In this document: piece after piece, positions 4,977 to 52,341 of the stretch | Layout of the letters: each line of letters starts with the position of its first letter | How positions within the stretch are numbered: the first letter of the stretch is position 1 | Assembly: GCA_031283105.1 (NCBI GenBank) | Contig: JAITCL010000040.1 | Coordinates: 1 to 58,531 of the forward strand | Direction of reading: 5' to 3' | Source: Treponema sp. | Lineage (GTDB): Bacteria > Spirochaetota > Spirochaetia > Treponematales > Breznakiellaceae | Length of the DNA stretch: 58,531 bases | Notes under the pieces: model-generated | What the model was told of the DNA's origin: nothing | Databases searched by the model: none | The model's input: only the letters and a program-made list of their open reading frames with translations | Program-made: the position numbers and the translations under genes

Positions 4977-6368
4977 TTATTTTAATCCTTCTTTTAAATA
5001 ATCCGCGAACGCAGTAAGCTCCGACCACAATTTTCCTGTTATTATTGTCCTTAAATCAGGAGTCGCTTTAAATGGTTCTGTTCTTTTTTCTTTTGTTTTC
5101 ATATCAATATATTCTATATATTCTCCCCTATAGCAATCGTATAATTCATGCAATTCAAGTAGTTTGTAACTGGAATTTTCTAAATTATTTTCATTAAAAA
5201 GTTCATTCATTATAAAAACATACATATCAGCAAAACATTTAACAGGAGCTTCTGTGGTATCAGGCATAATACGCGGAGAATCTACAGAGTGCCGGCTAAA
5301 ATCATAATTCATACGGAAAAAATAAATTTCTTCATTGTTGTTCTTTATTTCTTTGAATGGAAGAGTTTGCCGTATTTTTTCCCGCCACTCTCCTAAAAAT
5401 ATAGGAATATCTGGATTTATTTCTTTTATTTCATTCGCAGTATGTGCTCCCTGATCTTCTTCTTCAATTTTATATAATTCCTCCAACATTTCACGTGCTG
5501 CTGCTTTTACTGTATCTACCGTGTCTTTTTCCATGTCAACATGTCCACCAATAGATTTATCCCACATATCTCGATTATCTTTAGCATTTTCTGCTCTTTT
5601 ATGAATTAAAACACGTCCATCACGAGTAAAGATCATGCCCCAAATTACTACCTTTGCTTTTGTTATATCCAAAAAAGATGTTCTGGGTAATTGTCCCAGA
5701 CAATGTCTATCCTCATTGTACATCAGTATAATTTCTGTTCTGTTATCTTTTTTCGTAATTTCAGAAGAATATTTTTTTGCGCCTAATTTTTCATTATCCA
5801 AATAAGCGTTAAAATATTGTTCAAATTCTTTTGACCATAAATTTTCTAATTTTTCTTCTTTATCACTTTTTGGGGGTATTGGTATTTTTACAAATATTTC
5901 TTGTTTACAGAATTTTGTTAAGGACAAAGTATAGTAATAATCGTCATCAATATTTATAGTAGGGATAGGGATACGCCAATAACAAGTACGCAATGAGAAA
6001 CATTGTTCTTCATTTTTATCTTTGTTTTCACCTTTAGGTTCAATATGTTTACACTGTTTATTTACCAAATAATCCCGCATTTTTATTTTTGGCTCATTTT
6101 TTATCCTCATAAAATTACCAATATCGTAACTGCGGTCCTGTCCGCTCACATTTTTATTGGCAGAAATCAAGGATGAATAGGTCAAATCAGATTCTGACTC
6201 ACATATTATCTCAACAAGGAGTTCCCCTTTATTAATGCGATCATACCAATCTTCCCTGAATTCATCATAGGGCAAGTCAAAAGACACGGCTCCTAATATA
6301 CGAATACGTGATTTTGCTTCTTTAATTTTGGCAAACAGTTCTTCCCTAGAAAGGTATATTTGTTCCAT
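4977..6368 (-). CDS. Nudix hydrolase with an N-terminal PLD-like or sensor domain
   Basis: The 463-residue protein has a C-terminal Nudix domain. The box (about residues 273-300) reads GGHVDME, then a spacer, then REMLEEL. The spacer between the Glu and REMLEE is 11 residues instead of the canonical 7, a four-residue insertion. The context VLIHKR and MWDKSIGGHV resembles the IPP-isomerase-like Nudix branch. The first 200 residues (KIKEAKSRIRILGAVSFDLP) look like a separate alpha/beta domain related in style to the small membrane protein at the end of the operon. It is the first gene of the three-gene AT-rich minus-strand operon. Nudix enzymes cleave nucleoside diphosphate linkages; the actual substrate here is unknown. 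Confidence 0.75.
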   Translation of the reverse strand: MEQIYLSREELFAKIKEAKSRIRILGAVSFDLPYDEFREDWYDRINKGELLVEIICESESDLTYSSLISANKNVSGQDRSYDIGNFMRIKNEPKIKMRDYLVNKQCKHIEPKGENKDKNEEQCFSLRTCYWRIPIPTINIDDDYYYTLSLTKFCKQEIFVKIPIPPKSDKEEKLENLWSKEFEQYFNAYLDNEKLGAKKYSSEITKKDNRTEIILMYNEDRHCLGQLPRTSFLDITKAKVVIWGMIFTRDGRVLIHKRAENAKDNRDMWDKSIGGHVDMEKDTVDTVKAAAREMLEELYKIEEEDQGAHTANEIKEINPDIPIFLGEWREKIRQTLPFKEIKNNNEEIYFFRMNYDFSRHSVDSPRIMPDTTEAPVKCFADMYVFIMNELFNENNLENSSYKLLELHELYDCYRGEYIEYIDMKTKEKRTEPFKATPDLRTIITGKLWSELTAFADYLKEGLK

Positions 6369-29950: not shown

Positions 29951-30325
29951 TTATTCCTCATCGTACTCGAAATCATCATCATCATCGTAGTCGTAATCAT
30001 CGTCTTCATCTTCGTCAAAGTCTTCATCTTCTTCGTCGTCGTCATCATCATCGTCATCATCGAAGTCTTCTTCGTCGTCATCAAATTCTTCCTCTTCCAT
30101 GTCATCGAAATCGTCTTCTTCCATGTCGTCGTCTTCGTCATCATCGCTGTCGGCAAACGCGAAGAACGGCATGGGAGAAAAGGTTTCGTTAAGAACGCCG
30201 TTTTCAGCGCCGTTGACATCAGAAAAAGATTCGCCTGAATAGAGAGGCGTCAAAGCCAGCATTTCCATCGACAGGAATTCCATGCCGGAATCCCCATGAT
30301 TATTCCGGGCTTCGTGCTGAATCAT
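29951..30325 (-). CDS. Small protein with a long Asp/Glu/Tyr-rich tail
   Basis: The 124-residue product has an ordinary first half (about 60 residues) and a second half made almost only of Asp and Glu with a few Phe/Tyr/Met. The DNA of the tail is a run of imperfect cat/tcg/tct trinucleotides on the plus strand, so the length can change by slippage without loss of frame. No family was recognised. A role in charge-based binding of cations or basic proteins is a guess. It stands alone, convergent with rsfS. Confidence 0.55.
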   Translation of the reverse strand: MIQHEARNNHGDSGMEFLSMEMLALTPLYSGESFSDVNGAENGVLNETFSPMPFFAFADSDDDEDDDMEEDDFDDMEEEEFDDDEEDFDDDDDDDDDEEDEDFDEDEDDDYDYDDDDDFEYDEE

Positions 30326-41757: not shown

Positions 41758-41778
41758 GCGGGCCTTTAGCTCAGTTGG
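41758..41778 (+). other. attL: 21-bp tRNA 5' fragment
   Basis: The 21 bases from gcgggccttt to ctcagttgg are identical to 52321-52341, the start of the intact tRNA. Here they are followed by unrelated sequence, so this is the left attachment site and not a tRNA gene. Confidence 0.85.
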
Positions 41779-41861
41779 CGTAAAGTGGCGTTTATCCGTA
41801 AATCCTTATAGCACAAGGAGTTATGGAAAGTGAAAAATTAACAAACCCTCAAAAAATAAGC

Positions 41862-41900
41862 GTGATGACACCCTTGATGACAACTCTTTGGAGGTGTCAT
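41862..41900. promoter_or_regulatory. Candidate arm-type recombinase sites near attL
   Basis: TGATGACAC (41863-41871), TGATGACAA (41875-41883) and the inverse AGGTGTCAT (41892-41900) lie just before the integrase start. The same word recurs beside attR at 52182-52190, followed by GGTGATACC. Repeated short words near both att sites are typical of integrase or excisionase binding sites. Confidence 0.4.
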
Positions 41901-41901
41901 T

Positions 41902-43080
41902 ATGCGTAGGCCGACGCTCTACAAACAGCGCGGGACGTGGTACGCCCGGTTCTGGAATGAAACGGAAAAGAAATATCATTCAAAAGCCCTCGGCGTTCCG
42001 GTAGAGGGCAAAAAAGAGCGCCGGCGGGAAGCCGAAGAAGCCGCCCGGAAGATGGCGGCGGATATGGCGGCGGGCGCGGCGCCATTACAGGCCGTGAACG
42101 CGCCGGCCTCCGCGCCGCTCATTGAGTACGCCCTTGCCTTCTGGCGGCCGGACAGCGAGTACGTCCGGGAAAAAGCGTTACTTGAAAAAGAACCGTTATC
42201 CGCCCATTACCTTTTGTCGAACCGCCGCATGGTGGAAACCAAAATGAAACCATTCCCCGGATTTGCGGGCATGACGCTTAACGGCCTGGCCAAGCCGGTA
42301 ATCCGGCAGTGGAAGCTCTGGATGGCGGAGAAAGGGCATTCTGGGCGCACAATCAACGGCGCTATGCTGGCTTTGAGGGTTCCGGTCAAGCGGGCGTATT
42401 TTGACGACTTAATCACCGCAGACCCCTTCGCCGGGGTTCCCAGGGCGGCGCACAAGGAAAGGGCAAGGGGCATACTCACGCCCGCGGAAATCAAAAAGCT
42501 GGTGGAAACGCCCGCGCCCGACCCCCGCTCGCGGCTGGCGGTGTTTTTGCCGCTCTACTGCTCAATGCGCATGGGCGAAGTCCGGGGCCTGCAATGGGGC
42601 GACATATCCGACGGCATAATCCACATACGGCATAACTGGCAGGAAGGCGAAGGCTTGAAAAAATGCAAATGCGGTTCGGAGGGGTATGTGCCGATGCCCC
42701 GCGTGGTCGCCGGCCTCGTGAACCAGGTACACGCTATCGCGCCACTTACCGCCCCGGGGGATTTTGTCATGTCTATAAGGCCGTACCACCCGATATGCCG
42801 GGAAGCGTTAAGCGAAGCCCTGCGCTCAGAATTGTCTTTAATCGGCATTGGCGAGGAACAGCGCAAAAAGCGGAATATTGTCTACCACAGCCTGCGCCAT
42901 TCGTTTGTCACGGCTTGCAGAATCGCGGGGCTTTCAGATTTTGAGACGATGACGCTGTCGAGGCATAAGGACGTGAAAATGTTACAACGCTATTCTCACG
43001 GCAAGGAAGCCCTGGACATAAGGCGGATTGGTGAAAAACTGGAAATGTCGCTGTGTGATAAAACCCCTATTGCGGAATAA
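41902..43080 (+). CDS. int: Tyrosine recombinase/integrase of the element
   Basis: The 392-residue protein has an N-terminal arm-binding start (LYKQRGTWYARFWNETEKKYHSK-like), a SAM-like core-binding domain and a catalytic domain with Arg in SMRMGEVRGLQW, the HSLRHSFVT box and the final LSRHKDVKMLQRYSHG with the nucleophilic Tyr. It would catalyse integration into the tRNA gene. The ATG follows a ggaggtgtcatt ribosome site and is 124 bases from attL. The displaced tRNA promoter at 41713 could transcribe it. Confidence 0.93.
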   Translation: MRRPTLYKQRGTWYARFWNETEKKYHSKALGVPVEGKKERRREAEEAARKMAADMAAGAAPLQAVNAPASAPLIEYALAFWRPDSEYVREKALLEKEPLSAHYLLSNRRMVETKMKPFPGFAGMTLNGLAKPVIRQWKLWMAEKGHSGRTINGAMLALRVPVKRAYFDDLITADPFAGVPRAAHKERARGILTPAEIKKLVETPAPDPRSRLAVFLPLYCSMRMGEVRGLQWGDISDGIIHIRHNWQEGEGLKKCKCGSEGYVPMPRVVAGLVNQVHAIAPLTAPGDFVMSIRPYHPICREALSEALRSELSLIGIGEEQRKKRNIVYHSLRHSFVTACRIAGLSDFETMTLSRHKDVKMLQRYSHGKEALDIRRIGEKLEMSLCDKTPIAE

Positions 43081-43110
43081 CATAAACGGCGGATAATGGA
43101 GTATAATACA

Positions 43111-43308
43111 ATGACAAATTTTGAGAAATGGAAGAATGAATTGACCGCTGAACGGGTGCACGAGGTTTTTAAGGGTAAGAACTGCGCACTTGGCGGAAAA
43201 CACGTTGTCTGTCCGGCGGTAGCATTTTGCGCTTGTGAGCCAACCTGTGAAGAGGGTTTTATGTCATGGGCAACGGCAGATAACGAAGAATGTGAAAATA
43301 TACAATAA
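43111..43308 (+). CDS. Small Cys-rich phage-type protein
   Basis: The frame opens at 43096 (MEYNT), but ATG 43111 gives the start MTNFEKWKNEL, a form common among short Firmicutes and spirochaete phage proteins with several Cys (CALGG, CPAVAFCACEPTCEEGF). Four or more Cys could bind zinc. It lies just after the integrase. The function is unknown. Confidence 0.55.
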   Translation: MTNFEKWKNELTAERVHEVFKGKNCALGGKHVVCPAVAFCACEPTCEEGFMSWATADNEECENIQ

Positions 43309-43346
43309 TTATTTTTGAAAAATCATTGCTTCCCGAAAATATCTGA

Positions 43347-43375
43347 TTGACAATTTCTATTGCCTATGGTATTTT
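43347..43375 (+). promoter_or_regulatory. Sigma-70-type promoter before a short terminated RNA
   Basis: A perfect TTGACA (43347-43352), a 17-base spacer and TATTTT (43370-43375). The next structure downstream is a terminator at 43412-43439, not a gene start. Confidence 0.55.
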
Positions 43376-43381
43376 AATTAT

Positions 43382-43439
43382 GGCGTTTATCCGTTTCTCC
43401 TTATAGCAAATCCGGCTCTTTCTGGGCCGGTATTTTTTT
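43382..43439 (+). ncRNA. Candidate 58-nt small RNA
   Basis: Transcription from the promoter at 43347 should start near 43382 and end at a hairpin (ccggc 43412-43416 with gccgg 43426-43430) followed by seven T. The 5' half (tggcgtttatccgt, tccttatagca; 43381-43410) is a near copy of 41786-41816 beside attL. No ORF fits inside. It may be a regulatory RNA of the element; no expression evidence is available from sequence. Confidence 0.4.
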
Positions 43440-43597
43440 GTCTATGGGAGGGAGCTATCATAAAATTTAACCAGTAAAAAAATATACGCTTTAAATTTGC
43501 CCCAAAAAAAGCTGTCGAACCCCTGCAAGGCGTCTATTTTGACCGGCGGCAATTTCAGGGCCACTGGTATTGGGAGCGAGGTTTTCTCTCCTGCGTT

Positions 43598-43864
43598 ATG
43601 GCGGGCGCAGAAATCCCCGCCGTGATAACTCTGGAACATTTTAAGATGCCTTTTAACCGTGTTATCTTCGGAGCCTTACGTGCGATGAAACACAGGTCAG
43701 GCGTCTATTTTTTGCTCGTTTCATTTCTTAAAGCGACCGGAAACCTTGAAAAGTCCGGCGGGGAAGCGTATCTGGAAAAAATCCGCGATATGGTAGGCGT
43801 ACCGTCCGCAGTTTGCGCTTTCGCGGCCAAACTCATTGAACTGAAGGCGGGGCTGGACGTATGA
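43598..43864 (+). CDS. DnaB-helicase N-terminal-domain-like protein, possibly truncated
   Basis: The 88 residues HFKMPFNRVIFGAL, TGNLEKSGGEAYLEKI and VPSAVCAFAAKLIE match the helical N-terminal domain of DnaB-type helicases, which contacts primase. Domain-like sequence continues upstream of the ATG in the same frame (WERGFLSCV) as far as a TAA near 43475, without any ATG, GTG or TTG. The gene has either lost its start, perhaps through a slip in one of two A7 runs (43475-43481, 43504-43510), or uses a rare start. It overlaps the RepA-like gene by four bases, so together they may replace one DnaB-like protein. Confidence 0.55.
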   Translation: MAGAEIPAVITLEHFKMPFNRVIFGALRAMKHRSGVYFLLVSFLKATGNLEKSGGEAYLEKIRDMVGVPSAVCAFAAKLIELKAGLDV

Positions 43865-45033
43865 CGGAACCAAAAAATACTGAATTCCCCGAAATAGAGC
43901 TGGCGGACTGGGAAGCCGTAACGGAATACGCCGGAAAGCTCATGGACTCCGGCACGGACGAGGAAAAGGCCACCTTTGAGGCAATAAGCGTAATTCTTGA
44001 CAAGAAAAATCAGAAAGTAAATAAAGGCCCCCGCTTCGTGAGAATAGGCGGCGCGGCGGTTACCCCCGTCCGCTGGGCGGTAAAAAACTTTCTGGAAACC
44101 GGAGCGCTGGGAATGATTTTCGGGGATTCGGGAACGTACAAGTCCTTTTTAACGGTCGCCTTGTCCTCCTGTATCGCTACAGGACAAGATTTTTACGGTA
44201 TGCCGGTCAGGCGCAAAGGCGCGGTGTATTATATCGCAGCGGAAGGGCAGAACGGCATAATCCGGCGGTTCCGCGCGTGGAGCCAGGAAAACAAGCCGGT
44301 AATTGACGCGCCCCTGTACCGGTACGAGGGAGCCGTGAACCTGTCCGCCGCCGCCGACGTGCTATTAAAAGCCCTTGACGAAGCGGTAAAGGCCGAAGCC
44401 GAACCGCCCGTGCTTGCGGTTATAGACACCTGGGCGAGGTCTCTCGGCGATGATGATTCCGATACGTCGGCAGCCGCGGAAGGCCTGGCAAAAGTAGACC
44501 AAATAAGGGCTCATTTTCCCGATATGGCCGTGTTAATCATCCACCACACCGGACATGCGAATAAAGACCGCGCCCGCGGAGCGTCCCTGCTCCATGCCGC
44601 GGTTGACAGCGAGTACCGGCTGGAAGTTGACAAAGACCGCAAAATTGTAATGACCAACACCAAAAGCAAGGAATCGGAACTTTTGCCGCCAATGGCGTTT
44701 AAGGCCCGCGGGGTGAAACTGCTGGCCGATGCCGGCGGATATATTCTGAATGAGGACGGGGAAATTGAGACTTCGGCGGTCTTGGAAACGGTTGAATACA
44801 CGCCGCCGGTTGAAGGGCTGGGGGTAAATCAGGAAAGAATTCTGCAAATTTTACGGAAAACGGACGACAAAAAACTGGATTATGACGACTTGCTTGAGGC
44901 TTTCAAACAGGAAACAGGTAAAAGAAAAAGCCAATTTGACCAAACGGTTGACAGCCTCGAATACGCCGGATTGTTGTATTGTGAAAATGGCTTTATCGGT
45001 CTTGGCAAACAACCGGAGAAAAATATTGCATAA
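43861..45033 (+). CDS. RepA-like AAA ATPase (replicative helicase type)
   Basis: The 390-residue protein has a RecA-like core of the AAA_25/RepA type: Walker A GDSGTYKS near residue 85, VYYIAAEGQNGI, Walker B LAVIDTWAR and IIHHTGHANKDRARGASLLHAAVDSEYRL. A winged-helix-like C-terminal part (ILQILRKTDDKKLDYDDLLEAF) follows. Such ATPases are hexameric helicases of plasmids and phages. It directly precedes an array of iterons and palindromes that could be its origin. Confidence 0.82.
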   Translation: MTEPKNTEFPEIELADWEAVTEYAGKLMDSGTDEEKATFEAISVILDKKNQKVNKGPRFVRIGGAAVTPVRWAVKNFLETGALGMIFGDSGTYKSFLTVALSSCIATGQDFYGMPVRRKGAVYYIAAEGQNGIIRRFRAWSQENKPVIDAPLYRYEGAVNLSAAADVLLKALDEAVKAEAEPPVLAVIDTWARSLGDDDSDTSAAAEGLAKVDQIRAHFPDMAVLIIHHTGHANKDRARGASLLHAAVDSEYRLEVDKDRKIVMTNTKSKESELLPPMAFKARGVKLLADAGGYILNEDGEIETSAVLETVEYTPPVEGLGVNQERILQILRKTDDKKLDYDDLLEAFKQETGKRKSQFDQTVDSLEYAGLLYCENGFIGLGKQPEKNIA

Positions 45034-45425
45034 ACGCATAAACCGCATAATATGTATTTATGCAAGGACGGCAAGTGCATGCATAAACGCATATTCCCCT
45101 ATAGGGGGAATATGCGTATGCGTTATGCACGGTTTTTGTGATTGCCGTGCAAACGTGTAAACGTGTGCAAACAGTGTTTACACAGCGCGGTGTGAGTGTG
45201 TGCAAACGTGTATTTACCTATAGGGTAAATACACGTGCACATTTACACTCTGACGAGGGGTAATTTGCCGTGACAGCGGCCTTATATATTTGGCATGATA
45301 CCACACAGCACAAACAGCACAACACAGCACATTTGATGTTTGTGACGCGGCACAACACAGCACAAACAGCACACACACCTTTAGGTGTGTGCTGCGTGCT
45401 GCTGTGCAGTTGTGCCGTGCAGCCG
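45028..45425. repeat. Three iteron-palindrome modules, candidate replication origin or packaging site
   Basis: Three tandem modules share one plan: short direct repeats leading into a strong palindrome, then the repeats in inverse order. Module 1 uses GCATAAAC units and a palindrome with ctatag at the centre (45088-45116). Module 2 uses GTGCAAAC/GTGTAAAC units and a palindrome with the same ctatag centre (45207-45236). Module 3 uses AGCACAAAC units and a perfect palindrome (45368-45393). No ORF with coding character lies between 45034 and 45692. The setting after a RepA-like gene favours an origin; before a terminase-like gene, a packaging site is the alternative. Confidence 0.6.
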
Positions 45426-45692
45426 GAAACAGGTTATCGGTTTTGGCAAGGCAGCCGGAGACAAAAAGGTACTGTGAAACGAAAAATTTATTCCAAGACC
45501 TAAGCGACATGACCGCTCGCTCGCTCCGGTGCGGAATTTTCCGTTTCCGGCGAAAAAAGTGTCAGGTATGGCCCCCAGGAAGGCTGCTATTGCGTCCGGC
45601 GAGGCTTTGCCGTGTCATTTTATCTTTTTTGGTTTGGAGGCGTTTTTCCGCTATTTGACTATAGCGTAGATATAAATCACCCTAAAACATAT

Positions 45693-46436
45693 ATGTTAAA
45701 AACCTGCGCAGAAATATCGAAATTAAAACACTGTACCCGCCAAAGCGTAGATGAATTTCTTAAAAAAAACAAAATCGCGCCTTCCGGCAAAAAAGGCAAA
45801 CTTCCGCTGTATGACTGCGGCAAAGAACCCCTGGCCGGATACCTGGCCGCCAAATTCCCGCCTGCGAAACAAAAGCCGCAAACGCCGTCACCGGAACAGC
45901 CGGAAAACTTGCCAAATAATCCGCCCGCCCCGGATAATGCCGAAGCCGTCCGCCGCATATCAAAACCGCTGAATGACCTGCTCCGTGGGAAAGTCCCCGA
46001 AGGGCAAAAGCCGTCAAGCGTTTTTTACGCCAAAGCGATGAAAATCGCCGAAGCAAACCAAGATGCCCAAATGCTATTCCGGCTCGGACAGCTTGCCGAC
46101 AAGGAAAACCGCGACGAGGAATACCAGCGGCAGCGGATGAATACCGAACGCGCAAATGAGAGTATCGCCCAGGAAAAAGCCGCGCGGCTTAAAATTGAAA
46201 ATGACATCAGGCGTGAGCAGTTTATGGACAGGTCAACGGTAAAGCTGTTGTTTGGCAAAGTATATGCCGTGCATACCAGCACACTCACCCCCCTGCCGCT
46301 GAAATTGTCGTCCATGATTGCCGCCGTGCCGGAAGGAAATGGAAAAGAGGCGACCATAAATAATCTCATAAACGATGAAATTTACGCCGCGCTGGAAAGC
46401 ATCAAGAGGCTGCTGGTTGATTTTGTTGAAGGATAG
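45693..46436 (+). CDS. Terminase small-subunit-like (Nu1-type) DNA-packaging protein
   Basis: The frame opens at 45612, but ATG 45693 starts a helix-turn-helix-like stretch (MLKTCAEISKLKHCTRQSVDEFL) as in Nu1-type small terminase subunits. A Pro-rich linker (about residues 55-85) leads to a charged helical region and a C-terminal part (FGKVYAVHTSTLTPLPLKLSSMIAA) that resembles small terminase subunits. It would recognise the packaging site. The large subunit lies 4.2 kb downstream, separated by minus-strand and ligase genes, an unusual split. The assignment is moderate. Confidence 0.5.
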   Translation: MLKTCAEISKLKHCTRQSVDEFLKKNKIAPSGKKGKLPLYDCGKEPLAGYLAAKFPPAKQKPQTPSPEQPENLPNNPPAPDNAEAVRRISKPLNDLLRGKVPEGQKPSSVFYAKAMKIAEANQDAQMLFRLGQLADKENRDEEYQRQRMNTERANESIAQEKAARLKIENDIRREQFMDRSTVKLLFGKVYAVHTSTLTPLPLKLSSMIAAVPEGNGKEATINNLINDEIYAALESIKRLLVDFVEG

Positions 46437-46439
46437 GGA

Positions 46440-46754
46440 CTACGCGCTTTTCAGTTCCATTTTGAGCCGCAGGCCAAGAATGTCCATCAACTTGAACACT
46501 GTCTTAAAAGATGGGTTCCCATCCAGAGCGAGCGATTTGTACAGGCCTTTGCGGTCAAGGTTTAATTCTCTGGCAATCTGCGCCATGCCTTTTGACCGCG
46601 CGATGTCGCCGATGACGGAAAGAAGGAAATCAGGGTCGTTTTCTTCAAGGGCGGCTTCGATGTACGCTATTACCGTTTCTTTGTCATTGATGTACTTTGC
46701 GGGGTTCCACTCTGAAAATGTAATTTTTTCCCTCGTTTTTATCGCGGTTCTCAT
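46440..46754 (-). CDS. Antitoxin, HI1420 family helix-turn-helix
   Basis: The short protein ends in an Xre-like helix-turn-helix (MAQIARELNLDRKGLYKSLALDGNPSFKTVFKLMDILGL), typical of antidote proteins paired with HI1419-type toxins. The frame opens at 46772, but ATG 46754 (MRTAIKTREKITF) fits better. It starts just after the end of the toxin gene, whose stop overlaps the longer form, so the pair is one operon in toxin-first order. Confidence 0.85.
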   Translation of the reverse strand: MRTAIKTREKITFSEWNPAKYINDKETVIAYIEAALEENDPDFLLSVIGDIARSKGMAQIARELNLDRKGLYKSLALDGNPSFKTVFKLMDILGLRLKMELKSA

Positions 46755-46758
46755 AGTT

Positions 46759-47058
46759 TCATTCCTCCTCATAAAGCCGGGCGATTTTTTTCGCCCTGAT
46801 AATATCCGCCTGCTGCGTGGACTTGTCGCCGCCGCACAGCAGGATAATTATTTCTCTGCCGGTGTCCTTGTAATACACCCGGTAGCCGGGGCCGTAATGG
46901 ATACGCAGTTCGGAGATGCCCTCGCCTACAGGCCAGACATCGCCGGGGTTTCCTTCCTCAAGACGCTTAATCCTTGCGAGAATACGCGCTACCGCTACCG
47001 GGTCCCGGAGTTTGGCAAGCCATTTGTCAAACACGCTGGAAGGCCGCATCTTTTTCAT
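46759..47058 (-). CDS. RelE/ParE-superfamily toxin, HI1419 family
   Basis: The 99-residue protein shows the HI1419 pattern: FDKWLAKLRDPVAVARILARIKRLEEGNPGDVWPVGEGISELRI, then GPGYRVYYKDTGREIIILLCGGDKSTQQADI. It is the toxin of the pair with the downstream antitoxin. Known relatives cut mRNA at the ribosome or poison gyrase; which applies here is unknown. It probably stabilises the integrated element. Confidence 0.87.
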   Translation of the reverse strand: MKKMRPSSVFDKWLAKLRDPVAVARILARIKRLEEGNPGDVWPVGEGISELRIHYGPGYRVYYKDTGREIIILLCGGDKSTQQADIIRAKKIARLYEEE

Positions 47059-47194
47059 AATTCAAGTGTAGACTATAATCCCCATATTGTCAAGGGGAAA
47101 TCGCATGTTTTTCAAAAAAAGTTTTGGGTTATTTCTTGGGTTTTTTTGGGCCTTTGCCGGAAACATTGCGGATCGTTTTATATTTGTGTAAAAA

Positions 47195-48004
47195 CTATTC
47201 TGATATTTCTTCAGATTTATCGGTGGATTCGGCATCATCAGATTTTGTATTTTTTTCCTTTGCCCGATCCAATCTTTTCAGTATTTTCTCAATCTCTTTT
47301 TTGGCTTTTTTTGATTCCTCGGAGTCAATTATTTCTCTTTTAATAATATCATTCGCCATAATATCGGCGATTTCTTCATGGGTAATTTTTACATCTTCAT
47401 AGAGTTTTTTGATGTTCCTGCGGATCAGCGAATACACTTCTTCGCTGTTCAACAATGCCCCAATGATGAATTTGCTTTTTACCTGAATGCTTGAGTAAAA
47501 ATCATCAATGCTTGATTTTTCCTGTCCGTCCTTGCTTATAACAAACAGAGCTTCCAATCCTTTCTCTGACTTCGGGTTCACGGAAAGCATATTAAATTCA
47601 GAAACCAATTCCTTTTCTATTGGTTTTCCGAATTTTATTTTGTATATTATCCACCTTTCGGCGTTGGTTAGTATTACCCAATTAACCCCGGCGTTTGCAC
47701 CGTAATCAATAGCCTGCTTCACATGGCTGTCATTCAAGGCAACCGAAACCGCTTTTACCTCTATTAAAAACTTGATTTTCTTGTGGGCGTCAATAATCGC
47801 CAAATCGCAGTAAGTTCCCCTGATTGCGTATTCGGATGTTAACTCTTTATATTTATCGTAACCAAAGATTTCCTGCAGTATATCGGCCACTACTGTCACC
47901 GTGTCGGATTCATTGGCATCCCGCTTCTTTAAGTTGGCGATAATGTCCTGATACTTTTTAAGATTTTCATTAAGGCGTTTTGTGAATTTTGCCGGAATGT
48001 TCAT
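47195..48004 (-). CDS. Protein with HsdR_N-type PD-(D/E)XK nuclease-like domain
   Basis: The 269-residue protein resembles the N-terminal nuclease domain of type I restriction subunits: TVTVVADILQEIFGYDKY, SEYAIRGTYCDLAIID, then FLIEVKAVSVALNDSHVKQAIDYGANAGVNWVILTN (D...ExK). The C-terminal 100 residues are charged coiled coil. There are no helicase motifs, so it is a stand-alone protein. Single HsdR_N proteins are frequent in phages and islands; roles in defence or recombination are guesses. The minus orientation matches the neighbouring regulator gene. Confidence 0.75.
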   Translation of the reverse strand: MNIPAKFTKRLNENLKKYQDIIANLKKRDANESDTVTVVADILQEIFGYDKYKELTSEYAIRGTYCDLAIIDAHKKIKFLIEVKAVSVALNDSHVKQAIDYGANAGVNWVILTNAERWIIYKIKFGKPIEKELVSEFNMLSVNPKSEKGLEALFVISKDGQEKSSIDDFYSSIQVKSKFIIGALLNSEEVYSLIRRNIKKLYEDVKITHEEIADIMANDIIKREIIDSEESKKAKKEIEKILKRLDRAKEKNTKSDDAESTDKSEEISE

Positions 48005-48036
48005 AAAATACTCCTAATTGATAATGATAATTAATT

Positions 48037-48279
48037 CTATACATTTCCGTATTTTTTTACAACCTTCTCAGGGTTCCGTTTTCCGGCTCCCTTTTTGGGG
48101 CGGCCTTTGCCGGGGACATCGCAGATTGCTTCAAAAACATCTTTGGAATAAAGGTTACCACTAAAAACAGGTTCATAACCTCCACGTAATATTCTTTGAG
48201 CAATAGTTTTGTATGGCTTGCCAAGATGTTTAGCCATTTCTTCAATAGTGATACCTTCCATATGTTTTAGTATCGGCAA
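48037..48279 (-). CDS. Small helix-turn-helix protein, possible element regulator
   Basis: The 80-residue product has a helix-turn-helix-like segment (ITIEEMAKHLGKPYKTIAQRILRGG) and a basic tail (GKGRPKKGAGKRNPEKVVKK). ATG 48261 (MEGITIEE) is the likelier start. It is divergent from the ligase gene, and the space between carries paired direct repeats at the ligase promoter, so it may be the repressor that binds there. Confidence 0.55.
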   Translation of the reverse strand: MPILKHMEGITIEEMAKHLGKPYKTIAQRILRGGYEPVFSGNLYSKDVFEAICDVPGKGRPKKGAGKRNPEKVVKKYGNV

Positions 48280-48359
48280 TTATAGCAGAAAATGTAGAAT
48301 ACAACCAACATTTACTACATACTTGTATAGTAAAATGTGAAAAATCTTCAAAAAAAAAA

Positions 48360-48416
48360 TGTCGAATTCAGGAAACTTTTATTGACATTATGTCGAATAC
48401 AGGATACATTTATAAT
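48360..48416 (+). promoter_or_regulatory. Ligase-operon promoter with two operator-like direct repeats
   Basis: TTGACA (48382-48387) is followed after 17 bases by TACATT and then TATAAT (48411-48416). Two near-identical words, tgtcgaattcaggaaac (48360-48376) and tgtcgaatacaggatac (48391-48407), are spaced 31 bases apart, about three helix turns, on either side of the -35 box. This is a typical repressor arrangement. Confidence 0.55.
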
Positions 48417-48426
48417 ATAAACCCTG

Positions 48427-48497
48427 CGGCACCGGGGAAACAGAGCGTTGTATCGGCTAAGCCCGTGCCGGGGCGAGGCCGGTAGAGCGCTCTTTTT
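48427..48497 (+). promoter_or_regulatory. Structured leader with pseudoknot potential and terminator-like end
   Basis: Stem 1 pairs cggcac-ggg (48427-48436, one bulge) with cccgtgccg (48462-48470). Stem 2 pairs agagcg (48442-48447) with cgctct (48488-48493) and continues inside with tatcggc/gccggta. The strands interleave, so stem 1 closes on the loop of stem 2 as a pseudoknot. A T-run follows stem 2, 20 bases before the ligase ATG. This looks like an attenuator or riboregulator. Confidence 0.4.
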
Positions 48498-48512
48498 ATT
48501 TGGAGGTACGAG

Positions 48513-49388
48513 ATGAAAGTAAATTGCATGTTAGCCAATAAGTACGCGCCCGGTATGTTGGCCGGACGCGCGTTCACCGCCACGCTGAAACTTGACGGGA
48601 TACGGTGCATAGCCGTAAAGAAAGCCGGAACCGTGCGGTTTCTGACCAGAACCGGACGCGCCATTGACGGGCTTGGGGAGATTGAGGCAGAACTGTGCAA
48701 TCACCCGCTGGATTCGTTTGTCATTGACGGCGAGCTGCTGGTTTCCGACACCGCCGGATTGCCCAGTAAGGAACAGTTTAAGGCCACGTCAAAAATCGTG
48801 CAACGCAAGGGTGGCAAGTCCGGCGTCACCTACCATATTTTTGACTGCCTTGAATATGCCGATTTCGAGGCGGGCCGGAGTACCGCGCCGTACGGCGAGC
48901 GCCGCAAACTGCTTGAATCGGCATATGCCGGAATGAACCACGTAAAGGTAGTCCCGGCATTGTATTCCGGGGCCGATGAAAGCCGCATTGAAGATATTTT
49001 CAGCAAAGCCCGCGACGACGGGCAGGAAGGACTCATGCTCAACCTGAACGACGAGCCGTATTCGTTCCGCAGGACTAACGGATTGTTGAAAGTCAAAGTC
49101 ATGCAGGATTGCGACTTAAAAGTAATCGGCTTCAAAGAAGGCGAAGGGAAATTTAAAGACACGCTCGGAAGCGTCGTTGTCGATTACAAAGGAAACCGCC
49201 TGGGCGTAGGGACCGGGATTGACGATGACACCCGCCGTTACATCTGGGAAAACAGGGAAGCGCTGCTCGGCAGGACGGTCACGGTTCAATATTTTAAAGA
49301 AACAAAAGACGACAAAGGCAGGCTGTCGCTCAGGTTTCCGGTTTTTACGGGCATACGCGAAGCCGGAAAAGAAGTGAGCTACGCCTAA
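48513..49388 (+). CDS. ATP-dependent DNA ligase
   Basis: The 291-residue enzyme is a minimal phage-type ligase. Motif I is TLKLDGIRC with the lysine that takes AMP; DGELLV, EGLMLN and LLKVKV are motifs III, IV and V. A short OB-fold follows (LGSVVVDYKGNRLGVGTG...). It seals nicks during replication or packaging of the element. The ATG follows tttggaggtacgag. It leads a plus-strand operon running to the terminase. Confidence 0.92.
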   Translation: MKVNCMLANKYAPGMLAGRAFTATLKLDGIRCIAVKKAGTVRFLTRTGRAIDGLGEIEAELCNHPLDSFVIDGELLVSDTAGLPSKEQFKATSKIVQRKGGKSGVTYHIFDCLEYADFEAGRSTAPYGERRKLLESAYAGMNHVKVVPALYSGADESRIEDIFSKARDDGQEGLMLNLNDEPYSFRRTNGLLKVKVMQDCDLKVIGFKEGEGKFKDTLGSVVVDYKGNRLGVGTGIDDDTRRYIWENREALLGRTVTVQYFKETKDDKGRLSLRFPVFTGIREAGKEVSYA

Positions 49389-49416
49389 AAGGCGAAAGCC
49401 AAAGGAGATAAAACCA

Positions 49417-49683
49417 ATGAAATTAAACAAAGACAAATCAGCGGACTTTTATCATTTTCCTGTTGAGGAAACTGACAGAGTGATGGCGGAAATGGCCCAG
49501 GCCGAAAAAACAGGCGACCTTGCGGCGCTGAAACGGTGCGCGAGGCTGCTGTTATGGCTGTGGGGCGCGTTCCAAGATGACCTGTGCGGAAGTTTCGAGC
49601 CGTTCAATTTTGAGAGCTGCCAGTTTTCAAACGTCAGGGAATTTAACGCCGCATGGAGAAAAGAGGCGGAGGTAAACCAATGA
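49417..49683 (+). CDS. Small protein of unknown function
   Basis: The 88-residue acidic protein (DKSADFYHFPVEETDRVMAEM) has no recognised domain. The ATG follows aaaggagataaaacca, a good ribosome site. It overlaps the next gene by four bases (ATGA) and follows the ligase by 28, so it is in the ligase operon. Similar short proteins are common in phage replication regions. Confidence 0.6.
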   Translation: MKLNKDKSADFYHFPVEETDRVMAEMAQAEKTGDLAALKRCARLLLWLWGAFQDDLCGSFEPFNFESCQFSNVREFNAAWRKEAEVNQ

Positions 49684-49862
49684 CCGAAAAAACTACTATG
49701 GAACCAAAATTCGGAACGCTGTATTTAGGCTGCGTGGGCTACGCGGGCGCGGACATACGCATAGGCCACCGGGGCGATGCCCTTGACCTGCTGGACGAGC
49801 TGATAGAGGCGGAGTCGGTAAAGGACATCGACGTTCCCTTGCCGCCCTCAGAGACGCCATAG
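49680..49862 (+). CDS. Small protein of unknown function
   Basis: The 60-residue protein (MTEKTTMEPKFGTLYLGCVGY...) starts at ATG 49680, coupled by four-base overlap to the previous gene; the longer frame from 49653 is less likely. It is acidic and ends VPLPPSETP. No family was recognised. Confidence 0.55.
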   Translation: MTEKTTMEPKFGTLYLGCVGYAGADIRIGHRGDALDLLDELIEAESVKDIDVPLPPSETP

Positions 49863-49917
49863 CAAGGGGGATTGTGTGAGTATTGACTATAGCGGATACG
49901 CATAGGAGGGTATGAGT

Positions 49918-50607
49918 ATGCACGGCATAATCTACAAAGCCACCGGCCCGACCGGCAAGGTGTACGTGGGGCAAACGACGCGCACATTGGCAATGCGTAA
50001 AGGCCAGCATAAATTCAGGGCATTGAAAGGAGACCGCCGCTCCGCTTTTCAGATAGCCCTGCTTGACGAGGGTTTCTCCAATTTCCAATGGGAGCAAATC
50101 GACACCGCCGACAGCAAAGAAGAATTGGATAAAAAAGAGAAGTTATGGATAGCCCACTATAAGGCCGACAAACCCGAACACGGTTATAACTTACAAGACG
50201 GCGGTATCGGTGGTACTCCAAACGCCGAAGCCCGCCGCAAAATGAGCGAGGCGCATAGGGGTAAGTACCCTTCCCCTGAAACCCGTCAAAAATTGAGCGA
50301 TGTACGCAAAGGTGAGAAACATCATATGTACGGCAAACACCACAGCGAAGAAACCCGTAAGAAGATTAGCGAGGCGCATAAGGGCGAAAAAAACCACAAT
50401 TATGGCAAACAACGCGAATATCTTAGAGGGGAGAAAGTACATACCGCCAAAATCACCGAAGCTATCGCACGGAACATTAAACTTGATTTACAGACGGGAA
50501 TGAGAATTTGTGATTTAGCCAAAAAGCATAACACGAACGTTGAAGTTGTAAGGGCTATCAAACGTGGCAACTCTTGGGCATGGGTACAAATCGGAGATAG
50601 CGCATAA
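49918..50607 (+). CDS. GIY-YIG endonuclease with NUMOD3 repeats (homing type)
   Basis: The N-terminal GIY-YIG domain shows GIIYKATGPTGKVYVGQTTR with later Arg and Glu/Asn (KLWIAHYKADKPEHGYNLQDGG). Two or three NUMOD3 DNA-binding repeats follow (MSEAHRGKYPSPETRQKLS, YGKHHSEETRKKISEAHKG). A helix-turn-helix tail (ICDLAKKHNTNVEVVRAIKRG) completes the layout of phage homing endonucleases. ATG 49912 is too close to the aggaggg site; ATG 49918 fits. It sits next to the terminase gene, a common target of such enzymes. Confidence 0.88.
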   Translation: MHGIIYKATGPTGKVYVGQTTRTLAMRKGQHKFRALKGDRRSAFQIALLDEGFSNFQWEQIDTADSKEELDKKEKLWIAHYKADKPEHGYNLQDGGIGGTPNAEARRKMSEAHRGKYPSPETRQKLSDVRKGEKHHMYGKHHSEETRKKISEAHKGEKNHNYGKQREYLRGEKVHTAKITEAIARNIKLDLQTGMRICDLAKKHNTNVEVVRAIKRGNSWAWVQIGDSA

Positions 50608-50643
50608 CAAACAAAACCAACGTCGGGAGACGTAGGGAGAGGT

Positions 50644-51651
50644 ATGGGATTTTTTTCTGTCGCAGACCAAGATTTTCTTCTTAAAATACTGGAATCAGCC
50701 CCAACGCAAAAACCAACGGAAGATATTGCCGCATGGGTTGAAGGAAGGCGGATACTGCCGACCTCAAGCCCCATACCCGGCCCCTGGCACAACGCGGTTG
50801 CCCCCTATAACATAGACATAATGAACGATTTATCGCCTAACAGCGGCGTACAGCGCGTGGTTGTTATGAAGCCGAGGAAAGTGGGCTTGACGACTGCTAT
50901 GGAAAACGCCATAGCGTATTATATGTTGGCTTGCCCTAGCGTCATTCTGTACGCGACCGCCAGCGAAGACCTCGCCCAGGATTGGGGCGACAATAAAATC
51001 ATGAATGTCATCGAATCGCTTGGCGGCCTTGATAAAATTACGGCAAATACTACCAGCGCCAAAAGCCGCCGCACCGGAAACACATCGGACAAAAAAGAAT
51101 TTATTGGAGGTACGTTATACATAATGTCATCGCAGAGCAAACGCGCCCGCAGGCAATTAGATGTTAGGGCAATTTTCCTAGACGAAGTGGATGGGGTCAC
51201 GGCGGTGACTACCACCGGCGAGGGGAAATTTACAGAAATACTTTTCGGCCATACCGCTGCCTGGGGCACGAAACGGAAAATAGCGCTTTTCGGAAGCCCG
51301 ACCGTGCATGAAACAAGCCTCACCCATGAGTACTGGCTGCAAGGCGACTGCCGAAAGTTTCTTGTTCCCTGCCCGTTTTGCGGCGGAAAGGCGCATGTGA
51401 GAAAATATACTGATTGGCTTTCGTTTGTGCATTGTAATAAGTGTGATGCTGAGCGTAAAGCAGAAACAGAAGATAAAGCCATCGCCGCATGGAATAAGCG
51501 GGCGAATCCAGACTTTAACTGTTCAGAAGCGGACACAACAGGCGATGGAAAATGTATTGGCTATCAAATTAACAGTATAGACGATGAGCCGCATGATAAA
51601 TGCAAAGATTGCCCCAAAAGCCAATTCTATGAGGAGGCAAACGATGATTGA
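50644..51651 (+). CDS. GpA-type terminase ATPase domain fused to a Lar-like zinc ribbon
   Basis: Residues 1-245 match the ATPase part of GpA-family large terminases: KPRKVGLTTAMENAIAYYML (Walker A variant), RQLDVRAIFLDEVDG (Walker B) and GDCRKFLVPCPFCGG. From that Cys motif on, the sequence becomes a Lar-like ribbon (CPFCGGKAHVRKY...CNKCDAE...KAIAAWNKR) and a second Cys cluster (CSEADTTGDGKC, CKDCPKSQ). The nuclease domain of terminases is missing; full GpA proteins have over 600 residues. The protein is a chimera joined at the shared CPxCG. The ATG follows gggagaggt. It could still translocate or interfere with a helper phage's packaging. Confidence 0.75.
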   Translation: MGFFSVADQDFLLKILESAPTQKPTEDIAAWVEGRRILPTSSPIPGPWHNAVAPYNIDIMNDLSPNSGVQRVVVMKPRKVGLTTAMENAIAYYMLACPSVILYATASEDLAQDWGDNKIMNVIESLGGLDKITANTTSAKSRRTGNTSDKKEFIGGTLYIMSSQSKRARRQLDVRAIFLDEVDGVTAVTTTGEGKFTEILFGHTAAWGTKRKIALFGSPTVHETSLTHEYWLQGDCRKFLVPCPFCGGKAHVRKYTDWLSFVHCNKCDAERKAETEDKAIAAWNKRANPDFNCSEADTTGDGKCIGYQINSIDDEPHDKCKDCPKSQFYEEANDD

Positions 51652-51730
51652 CATACCGTTAGGCAAGGCATTAGTGGTAGAGGAAAGTATGAATTGCGAA
51701 GGCTGTTTATTAGCGGGTTTGGACAATTAG
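51644..51730 (+). CDS. Very small Cys-containing protein (28 residues)
   Basis: The frame MIDIPLGKALVVEES ends with CEGCLLAGLDN and a TAG. Its ATG overlaps the terminase stop, with gaggaggc just upstream as ribosome site. The start IPLGKALV and the CxxC look like a known type of small phage protein, perhaps shortened by a frameshift, since the next frame continues with coding character. Confidence 0.4.
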   Translation: MIDIPLGKALVVEESMNCEGCLLAGLDN

Positions 51731-51951
51731 AAGAATTTGTGGTCGTCGCCCTGAACGAAAAATGGGAGCGGGATTTCGGGGAGCGGAAACGGTGGCAGAA
51801 ACATACATTATTCAATCCAGCATCACAAAAAAACTATAGATGGTATGATTGCCCTTATTGTGGGCAGTTAGCAGGAGAAAATGGACTGACTAACTACTGC
51901 CCCAATTGCGGTAAGCCGTTAGACCCGCCAGACCCGCCGGAGGAAACATGA
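51694..51951 (+). CDS. Small zinc-ribbon protein
   Basis: The C-terminal half has paired CxxC motifs (YDCPYCGQLAGENGLTNYCPNCGKPL), a classic zinc ribbon. The N-terminal half (LNEKWERDFGERKRWQKH) is charged. The TTG at 51694 lies inside the preceding small gene; a later start such as GTG 51739 is possible. It overlaps the excisionase-like gene by four bases (ATGA). Confidence 0.55.
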   Translation: MRRLFISGFGQLEEFVVVALNEKWERDFGERKRWQKHTLFNPASQKNYRWYDCPYCGQLAGENGLTNYCPNCGKPLDPPDPPEET

Positions 51952-52178
51952 CAAATTTTGATTTAGAGAAAATTACCCAGCTGCCGGAACTGAAAGGCGA
52001 GTTTTTTTTAACGCCAAAGGAATTCGCCAAAATTGCGGGCATTACCCCCGAATGCGTATACGGCTGGGGGAGGGCGGGCTATATAAAACTTAAGAGATTT
52101 AGCCCGCGCCGGTTAATGGTTCCTAAAAGCGAGGTTTTACGGTACTTAAAAGGGGAAATGATGGAGACAAAAAAGTAA
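51948..52178 (+). CDS. Excisionase-like helix-turn-helix protein
   Basis: The 76-residue basic protein has a MerR/Xis-like winged helix: FLTPKEFAKIAGITPECVYGWGRAGYIKLKRFSPRRLMVPKSEVLRYLKG. Such proteins direct excision by bending attachment-site DNA. It is the last gene before attR, and TGATGAC-type repeats lie just downstream, which supports an excision role. A plain regulator is the alternative. Confidence 0.65.
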   Translation: MTNFDLEKITQLPELKGEFFLTPKEFAKIAGITPECVYGWGRAGYIKLKRFSPRRLMVPKSEVLRYLKGEMMETKK

Positions 52179-52246
52179 AAGTGATGACACTTTGGTGATA
52201 CCTTTAGTAAAAACGCTATTTTTGGGCTTATTTGGCCTATACCCTG

Positions 52247-52276
52247 TTGACATATTTTTACCAAAAACGCTATATT
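52247..52276 (+). promoter_or_regulatory. Element-borne promoter for the rebuilt tRNA
   Basis: TTGACA (52247-52252), an 18-base spacer and TATATT (52271-52276) lie inside the element, about 47 bases before the tRNA. Because integration removes the native promoter, this one must drive the tRNA now. Confidence 0.55.
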
Positions 52277-52320
52277 TTCATTAGATTTCATCAAGGTTCA
52301 TCACGCTTTGATTAATTTTT

Positions 52321-52341
52321 GCGGGCCTTTAGCTCAGTTGG
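52321..52341 (+). other. attR: 21-bp repeat at the tRNA 5' end
   Basis: This is identical to 41758-41778. It covers two bases before the tRNA, the 5' acceptor strand and most of the D arm, so the crossover lies in the 5' part of the tRNA gene. Confidence 0.85.

Follow-up and report, generated by a model that had tools for sequence, protein, structure and literature searches.

We have found that three tandem repeat modules lie directly 3' of the gene for a RepA-like helicase in an integrated phage-derived element, within a stretch of 58.5 kb that was analysed as a whole and is referred to here as the window. Comparison with related elements indicates that each module is probably a replication-origin unit of the element's phage family, recognized by the winged helix of RepA and present here in three tandem copies. 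The features that we computed are the modules themselves, their geometry, their site after repA, a conserved palindrome centre, the predicted winged-helix fold and the co-variation of the repeated words with that domain.

Three repeat modules in the window

The interval 45028-45425 contains three modules, each combining direct and mirrored repeats with a palindrome and an inverted copy. The original prediction had described three such modules, and its boundaries agree with ours to within 1-2 nt. Module 1 (45027..45128, + strand) has direct iterons at 45028, 45036 and 45045, an inverted one at 45059, direct ones again at 45081 and 45089, and inverted ones at 45111, 45117 and 45124; its palindrome (45087..45117; the palindromes are given without strand) has perfect 13-bp arms around the centre CTATAG at 45099-45104. 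Module 2 (45147..45248, + strand) has direct iterons at 45147, 45155 and 45165, an inverted one at 45176, a direct one at 45200 and an inverted tail to 45248, with a palindrome (45206..45236) that again has perfect 13-bp arms and CTATAG at 45218-45223. Module 3 (45300..45420, + strand) is built from iterons at 45308 and 45360 (GCACAAAC), degenerate AGCAC copies and one inverted GTTTGTG, and its palindrome (45367..45394) is centred on CTTTAG at 45379-45384. The CTATAG centre shared by two of the palindromes had thus been correctly noticed.

These repeats exceed those in 1000 dinucleotide shuffles. Across 45027-45425 there are 89 direct and 60 inverted pairs of 7-mer self-matches, against shuffle maxima of 33 and 42. 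Module 1 alone has 14 direct and 21 inverted pairs (maxima 9 and 14); in module 2 (18 and 12; maxima 11 and 16) and module 3 (36 and 15; maxima 23 and 27), only the direct repeats top every shuffle. Folding of the modules as DNA gives z-scores on the + and - strands of -6.8 and -6.5 for module 1, -5.1 and -6.0 for module 2, and -3.8 and -2.8 for module 3; the RNA folds are likewise significant. The whole 58.5 kb has seven strong hairpins (stem at least 10, loop at most 8), of which three are the module centres. That the modules act as folded structures is plausible. The top repeat-density score of the whole window belongs to a segment at about 29956-30085, with 83 direct and 0 inverted 7-mer pairs, that is unrelated to the modules.

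The iteron words GCATAAAC, GTGTAAAC/GTGCAAAC and GCACAAAC had been thought to share only AAAC, but all of them fit GYRYAAAC and differ by transitions only. This motif occurs 10 times within the interval of about 0.4 kb, compared with 0.33 times per kb in the rest of the window. Because the words amount to one degenerate 8-mer, a single RepA can plausibly serve all three modules, and the proposed existence of three binding specificities inside one element is unlikely.

The element and its RepA protein

The modules lie in a 10.6-kb element (41758..52341, + strand) that is bounded on either side by the 21-bp direct repeat GCGGGCCTTTAGCTCAGTTGG. Its copies are at 41758 and 52321, the right one within the 5' portion of a gene for tRNA-Met, and are likely the attachment sites of the element, which is itself likely a satellite or a decayed prophage. 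Upstream of the modules are genes for a tyrosine integrase (41902..43080, + strand; PF00589 7e-15; phrog_1 3.5e-40), a small DnaB N-terminal-domain protein (43598..43864, + strand; PF00772 1.5e-5) that overlaps the start of repA, and the RepA-like hexameric helicase of AAA_25 type (43861..45033, + strand; PF13481 3e-30, together with the structural model and Foldseek). By eye, the locus L012 has an N-terminal region similar to the small DnaB-N protein fused to its RepA.

Neighbouring genes outside the putative origin encode a TerS-like small terminase (45612..46436, + strand; phrog_57 1.2e-8), for which no relatives were found among the viral contigs, and a truncated gpA-type large terminase ATPase (50644..51651, + strand; PF05876 4e-43; PF14354 1e-12), which ends early after the ATPase domain and runs into a Lar-like restriction-alleviation zinc domain. 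The truncation suggests that the element is a decayed prophage. Pfam and PHROGs also identified a DNA ligase and a GIY-YIG endonuclease. A PICI is marked by int, rep-ori and terS, by a lack of structural genes and by dependence on a helper. The window element has an integrase, a rep-module pair and a terS-like gene, and its ORFs scanned with Pfam and PHROGs included none that could be named as a head or tail gene, so that its origin may now be out of use. A scan of the ten main ORFs of the element with the same two resources gave no match to RepC or RepB'. By the left edge of the window, a long ORF (155-1744) appears transposase-like from its translation by eye.

The AlphaFold model of the window RepA (mean pLDDT 76) has a core that matches RSF1010 RepA among many RecA-like folds, with TM-scores by target length of 0.64-0.66 for this predicted fold against structures 1nlf and 1g8y. 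On the basis of its AAA_25 domain and this model the protein is a RepA-type helicase of the AAA_25/RSF1010-RepA-like class, predicted to be hexameric, rather than the prim-pol plus SF3 helicase of the pRN1 type. Its C-terminus, at about residues 322-381, is a winged helix that falls within the high-confidence part of the model, and which by itself retrieved the winged helices of MarR, Fur, BlaI and Rpa2/MCM in Foldseek (E 0.005-0.03). Among bacterial genomes, the one named RepA relative that turned up is in a Spirochaetaceae MAG, which points to a spirochaete as host.

Position and geometry are shared among relatives

The window modules begin at the repA stop codon, and this arrangement recurs in relatives. 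Behind each of the two closest RepA genes found in IMG/VR (64-66% identical) there is a single module of 120 nt, its CTATAG palindrome perfect, and the locus L016 (RepA 59%) has a module in the word AACTTT, again with CTATAG. In the more distant L012 (RepA 37-41%), a module with the word GTCCG lies within the 3' end of the repA frame, and in several loci module and repA coding sequence overlap. At L012 the repA frame continues through the module (6170-6300), which supplies the C-terminal part of RepA, making this origin-like DNA also coding.

In a repeat-density scan, the top repeat segment of the locus fell at the repA stop (within -400..+600 nt) in 30 of 38 RepA clusters, where 6.9 were expected (P 2e-16); the remaining eight clusters are without a module near repA by the same measure. 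At L055, two repeat-dense segments lie 3' of repA. Among five complete phage records, the module is the top repeat segment of the entire genome in four (CRP-406, CRP-821, CRP-811 and MW202867), while the scan of the fifth, MW202475, showed no such module. GC skew was uninformative in these five records, probably because most phage genes are on one strand.

The typical plan, drawn from 20 modules at 18 loci with words and centre strings picked by hand, comprises three direct iterons 8-11 bp apart, one inverted iteron and a spacer; there follow two direct iterons 8-12 bp apart, the centre 10-12 bp further on and, last, inverted iterons. Written as iteron directions with start-to-start spacings, window module 1 is '> 8 > 9 > 14 < 22 > 8 > 10 [CTATAG] 12 < 6 < 7 <', L016 is '> 8 > 9 > 14 < 42 > 8 > 10 [CTATAG] 11 < 6 < 7 <', L010 is '> 9 > 10 > 16 < 27 > 9 > 10 [CTTAAG] 9 < 7 <' and L129 is '> 9 > 10 > 16 < 28 > 9 > 11 [CTAAG] 8 < 8 <'. 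These four modules are alike in geometry and unrelated in their words. Departures from the plan are seen at L034, L043, L049 and MW202867, and in CRP-811 and CRP-821 the first iteron group is inverted. An automatic count found CTATAG centres in 8 of 31 modules and 0 of 344 random windows; for centres of the general form CT(W)nAG, the counts were 19 modules and 7 random windows.

Position, geometry and centre are kept across elements whose RepA proteins are only about 30-40% identical. The modules thus have ordered iterons at a fixed place relative to the rep gene, as in an iteron-type origin, and preserve structure without sequence directly 3' of rep, as in a stem-loop origin of the pRN1 type. 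The words vary between related elements and the plan and palindrome centre do not, so the region is not freely variable.

Iteron words follow the RepA winged helix

Across 415 pairs drawn from 42 non-redundant loci, taken at a core identity of 70% or more and with module-encoded RepA residues masked, word similarity tracks winged-helix identity when the core is held constant (partial rank r 0.85), although the locus pairs are non-independent and most come from one IMG/VR clade. With the winged helix held constant, word similarity has almost no relation to the ATPase core (partial rank r 0.03). A Mantel test before masking gave p 0.0005, and the co-variation stood after masking. Mere linkage was considered as its cause and rejected, since the downstream flank, across the module from repA, shows no effect (partial rank r 0.07 with the winged helix held constant).

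A natural experiment is provided by four related phages of Roseobacter, CRP-811, CRP-823, CRP-821 and CRP-831, the RepA ATPase cores of which are 99-100% identical. Their C-terminal domains pair CRP-811 with CRP-823 and CRP-821 with CRP-831 (99-100% identity within pairs and 73-79% across), and the words pair in the same way, CTACAAA in the first two phages versus GTATAAA in the others. The N-terminal part of RepA pairs otherwise, CRP-821 with CRP-823, and the start of the next gene is similar in all four by eye. The cognate match to be expected between an initiator's DNA-binding domain and its iterons is thus seen in the form of co-variation, at the level of sequence. The notion of differing binding specificities, doubtful within the element, is strongly supported between elements, and the predicted origin for the RepA-like protein gains good support from this co-variation and from the recurrence of the plan after repA.

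Particular helix segments can be set beside particular words. In the L051-L125 clade from IMG/VR the pairs, read by eye, are KSNRFRE with AACCGAA, NARRFKE with GTACCGAA, KNNRFWE with CATCCGAA and ANNRLWE with ATCCGGA, possibly amounting to a readable winged-helix code. Several putative readers of the word GGGACA (L010, L049, L066 and L087) share a KKAFQR-like segment. The word recurs in L135 and MW202867 beside winged-helix sequences quite unlike these, as if by convergence.

Proposed function and alternatives

It is unlikely that RepA binds the modules as an operator or as an incompatibility (copy-control) region, and not as the site of initiation. Binding by the RepA winged helix would account for the co-variation equally well in that case, and the triplication resembles the incompatibility arrays found in iteron plasmids. 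However, a site 3' of the gene, or within its 3' end, is ill suited to promoter control, and the palindrome, with its conserved AT centre, is suggestive of strand opening.

In both the window and L016 the modules are located between repA and terS, and cos sites are often near terS. The original prediction had allowed for a packaging site, but a cos or pac site read by the small terminase now appears very improbable, because the modules do not show the association with terminase genes that it implies. An integrase-RepA-module cassette is common to L007 and to the window and L016, yet the terminases differ in type, being HNH, TerS and a 589-aa TerL in L007 and a gpA-type TerL in the other two. 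The contig of L013, a relative with HNH-TerS-TerL genes and a 70% identical integrase, encodes no RepA and is also without a module. In four complete phages repA is the neighbour of the module and the terminase genes are about 1.4-4.6 kb away, and the words track the winged helix of RepA.

There is equally little to recommend transcription terminators or RNA structures that close the repA operon. Strong hairpins at gene ends and significant RNA folds are in keeping with such a role, but terminators have no need of ordered iterons, the modules overlap the coding region of repA in several loci, no T-run directly follows the window hairpins, and Rfam gave no match. Least probable of all are dispersed REP-like repeats or the functionless drift of a repeat array. 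Slippage can make repeats with inverted copies uniform, but when the element's own genome was searched at the DNA level, the interval matched only at its own site, and its position, geometry and centre persist across divergent RepA proteins.

For modules that are replication-origin units, we infer binding, opening, loading and origin activity as follows. The C-terminal winged helix of RepA would bind the iterons, which in the window have the form GYRYAAAC, to the left and right of the palindrome, and the near-constant geometry of direct and inverted copies would turn the RepA subunits towards the centre. With CTATAG or CTWnAG as its AT centre and strong stems to either side, the palindrome would open or be extruded as a cruciform, allowing helicase rings to load on the exposed strands, with host primase and polymerase then following. 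The triplication could possibly serve dosage, or represent one main copy and two accessory or incompatibility copies.

We also advance, as a proposal with somewhat less than an even chance of being right, that the modules exemplify a widespread and undescribed class of phage origin, in which a helicase of the RSF1010-RepA class reads its own origin. Its C-terminal winged helix would recognise a freely evolving word whose copies keep a fixed arrangement about a CTWnAG palindrome that forms a cruciform. Recognition, opening and loading would then fall to a single protein with no separate initiator or loader, and the domain-word pairs would evolve as exchangeable cognate cassettes. Origins of this kind would account for the site and manner in which many phages with RepA-type helicases begin replication, and make it testable whether a RepA/DnaB-class helicase can recognise an origin and load there alone. 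The modules also offer a natural data set for protein-DNA recognition, with dozens of winged-helix/word pairs in near-fixed geometry and near-identical helicases of swapped specificity, to which the window adds an unusual triplication.

Comparison with known origins

In a search of mainly open-access literature we found no earlier description of such a phage origin layout, only papers on pRN1/BIP-1, PICI, PLE and iterons in general; work on PLE RepA and on extrachromosomal prophages of mycobacteria deals with proteins of other types. The stem-loop origin of the crenarchaeal plasmid pRN1, whose replication protein is ORF904, is about 100 nt of structured DNA directly 3' of its replication gene; it keeps its structure but not its sequence, and mutation showed that it is needed for replication (PMC4234260). 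The window modules resemble it in being structured DNA directly 3' of a rep gene, in keeping structure over sequence and in the C-terminal winged helix of the protein. However, pRN1 combines an SF3 helicase with a prim-pol and has no iterons (PMC4234260), whereas the window has an RSF1010-RepA-like helicase and ordered iterons around a palindrome.

The rep-ori of PICI/SaPI elements, as far as its description in PMC6092414 goes, is a functionally tested replicon with the origin immediately 3' of rep and two iteron sets around an AT-rich stretch. The modules are similar in both respects, but differ from the rep-ori as described there in having a palindrome with a conserved CTWnAG centre.

With the oriV of RSF1010/IncQ plasmids (as described in PMC4234260) the modules share iterons and short hairpins, and the proteins share the RepA core fold. 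In RSF1010, though, RepC reads the iterons and RepB' the hairpins, whereas the window RepA itself bears a winged helix and the scanned ORFs yielded no separate initiator. The alpha protein of phage P4 is of the SF3 helicase type. It is a helicase-initiator with a winged-helix origin-binding domain that reads repeats (ori and crr), and it has a Toprim-type primase that sets it apart from the window RepA (PMC4234260). What the two proteins would have in common is a helicase equipped with its own winged-helix origin-binding domain for reading repeats, as we predict for RepA.
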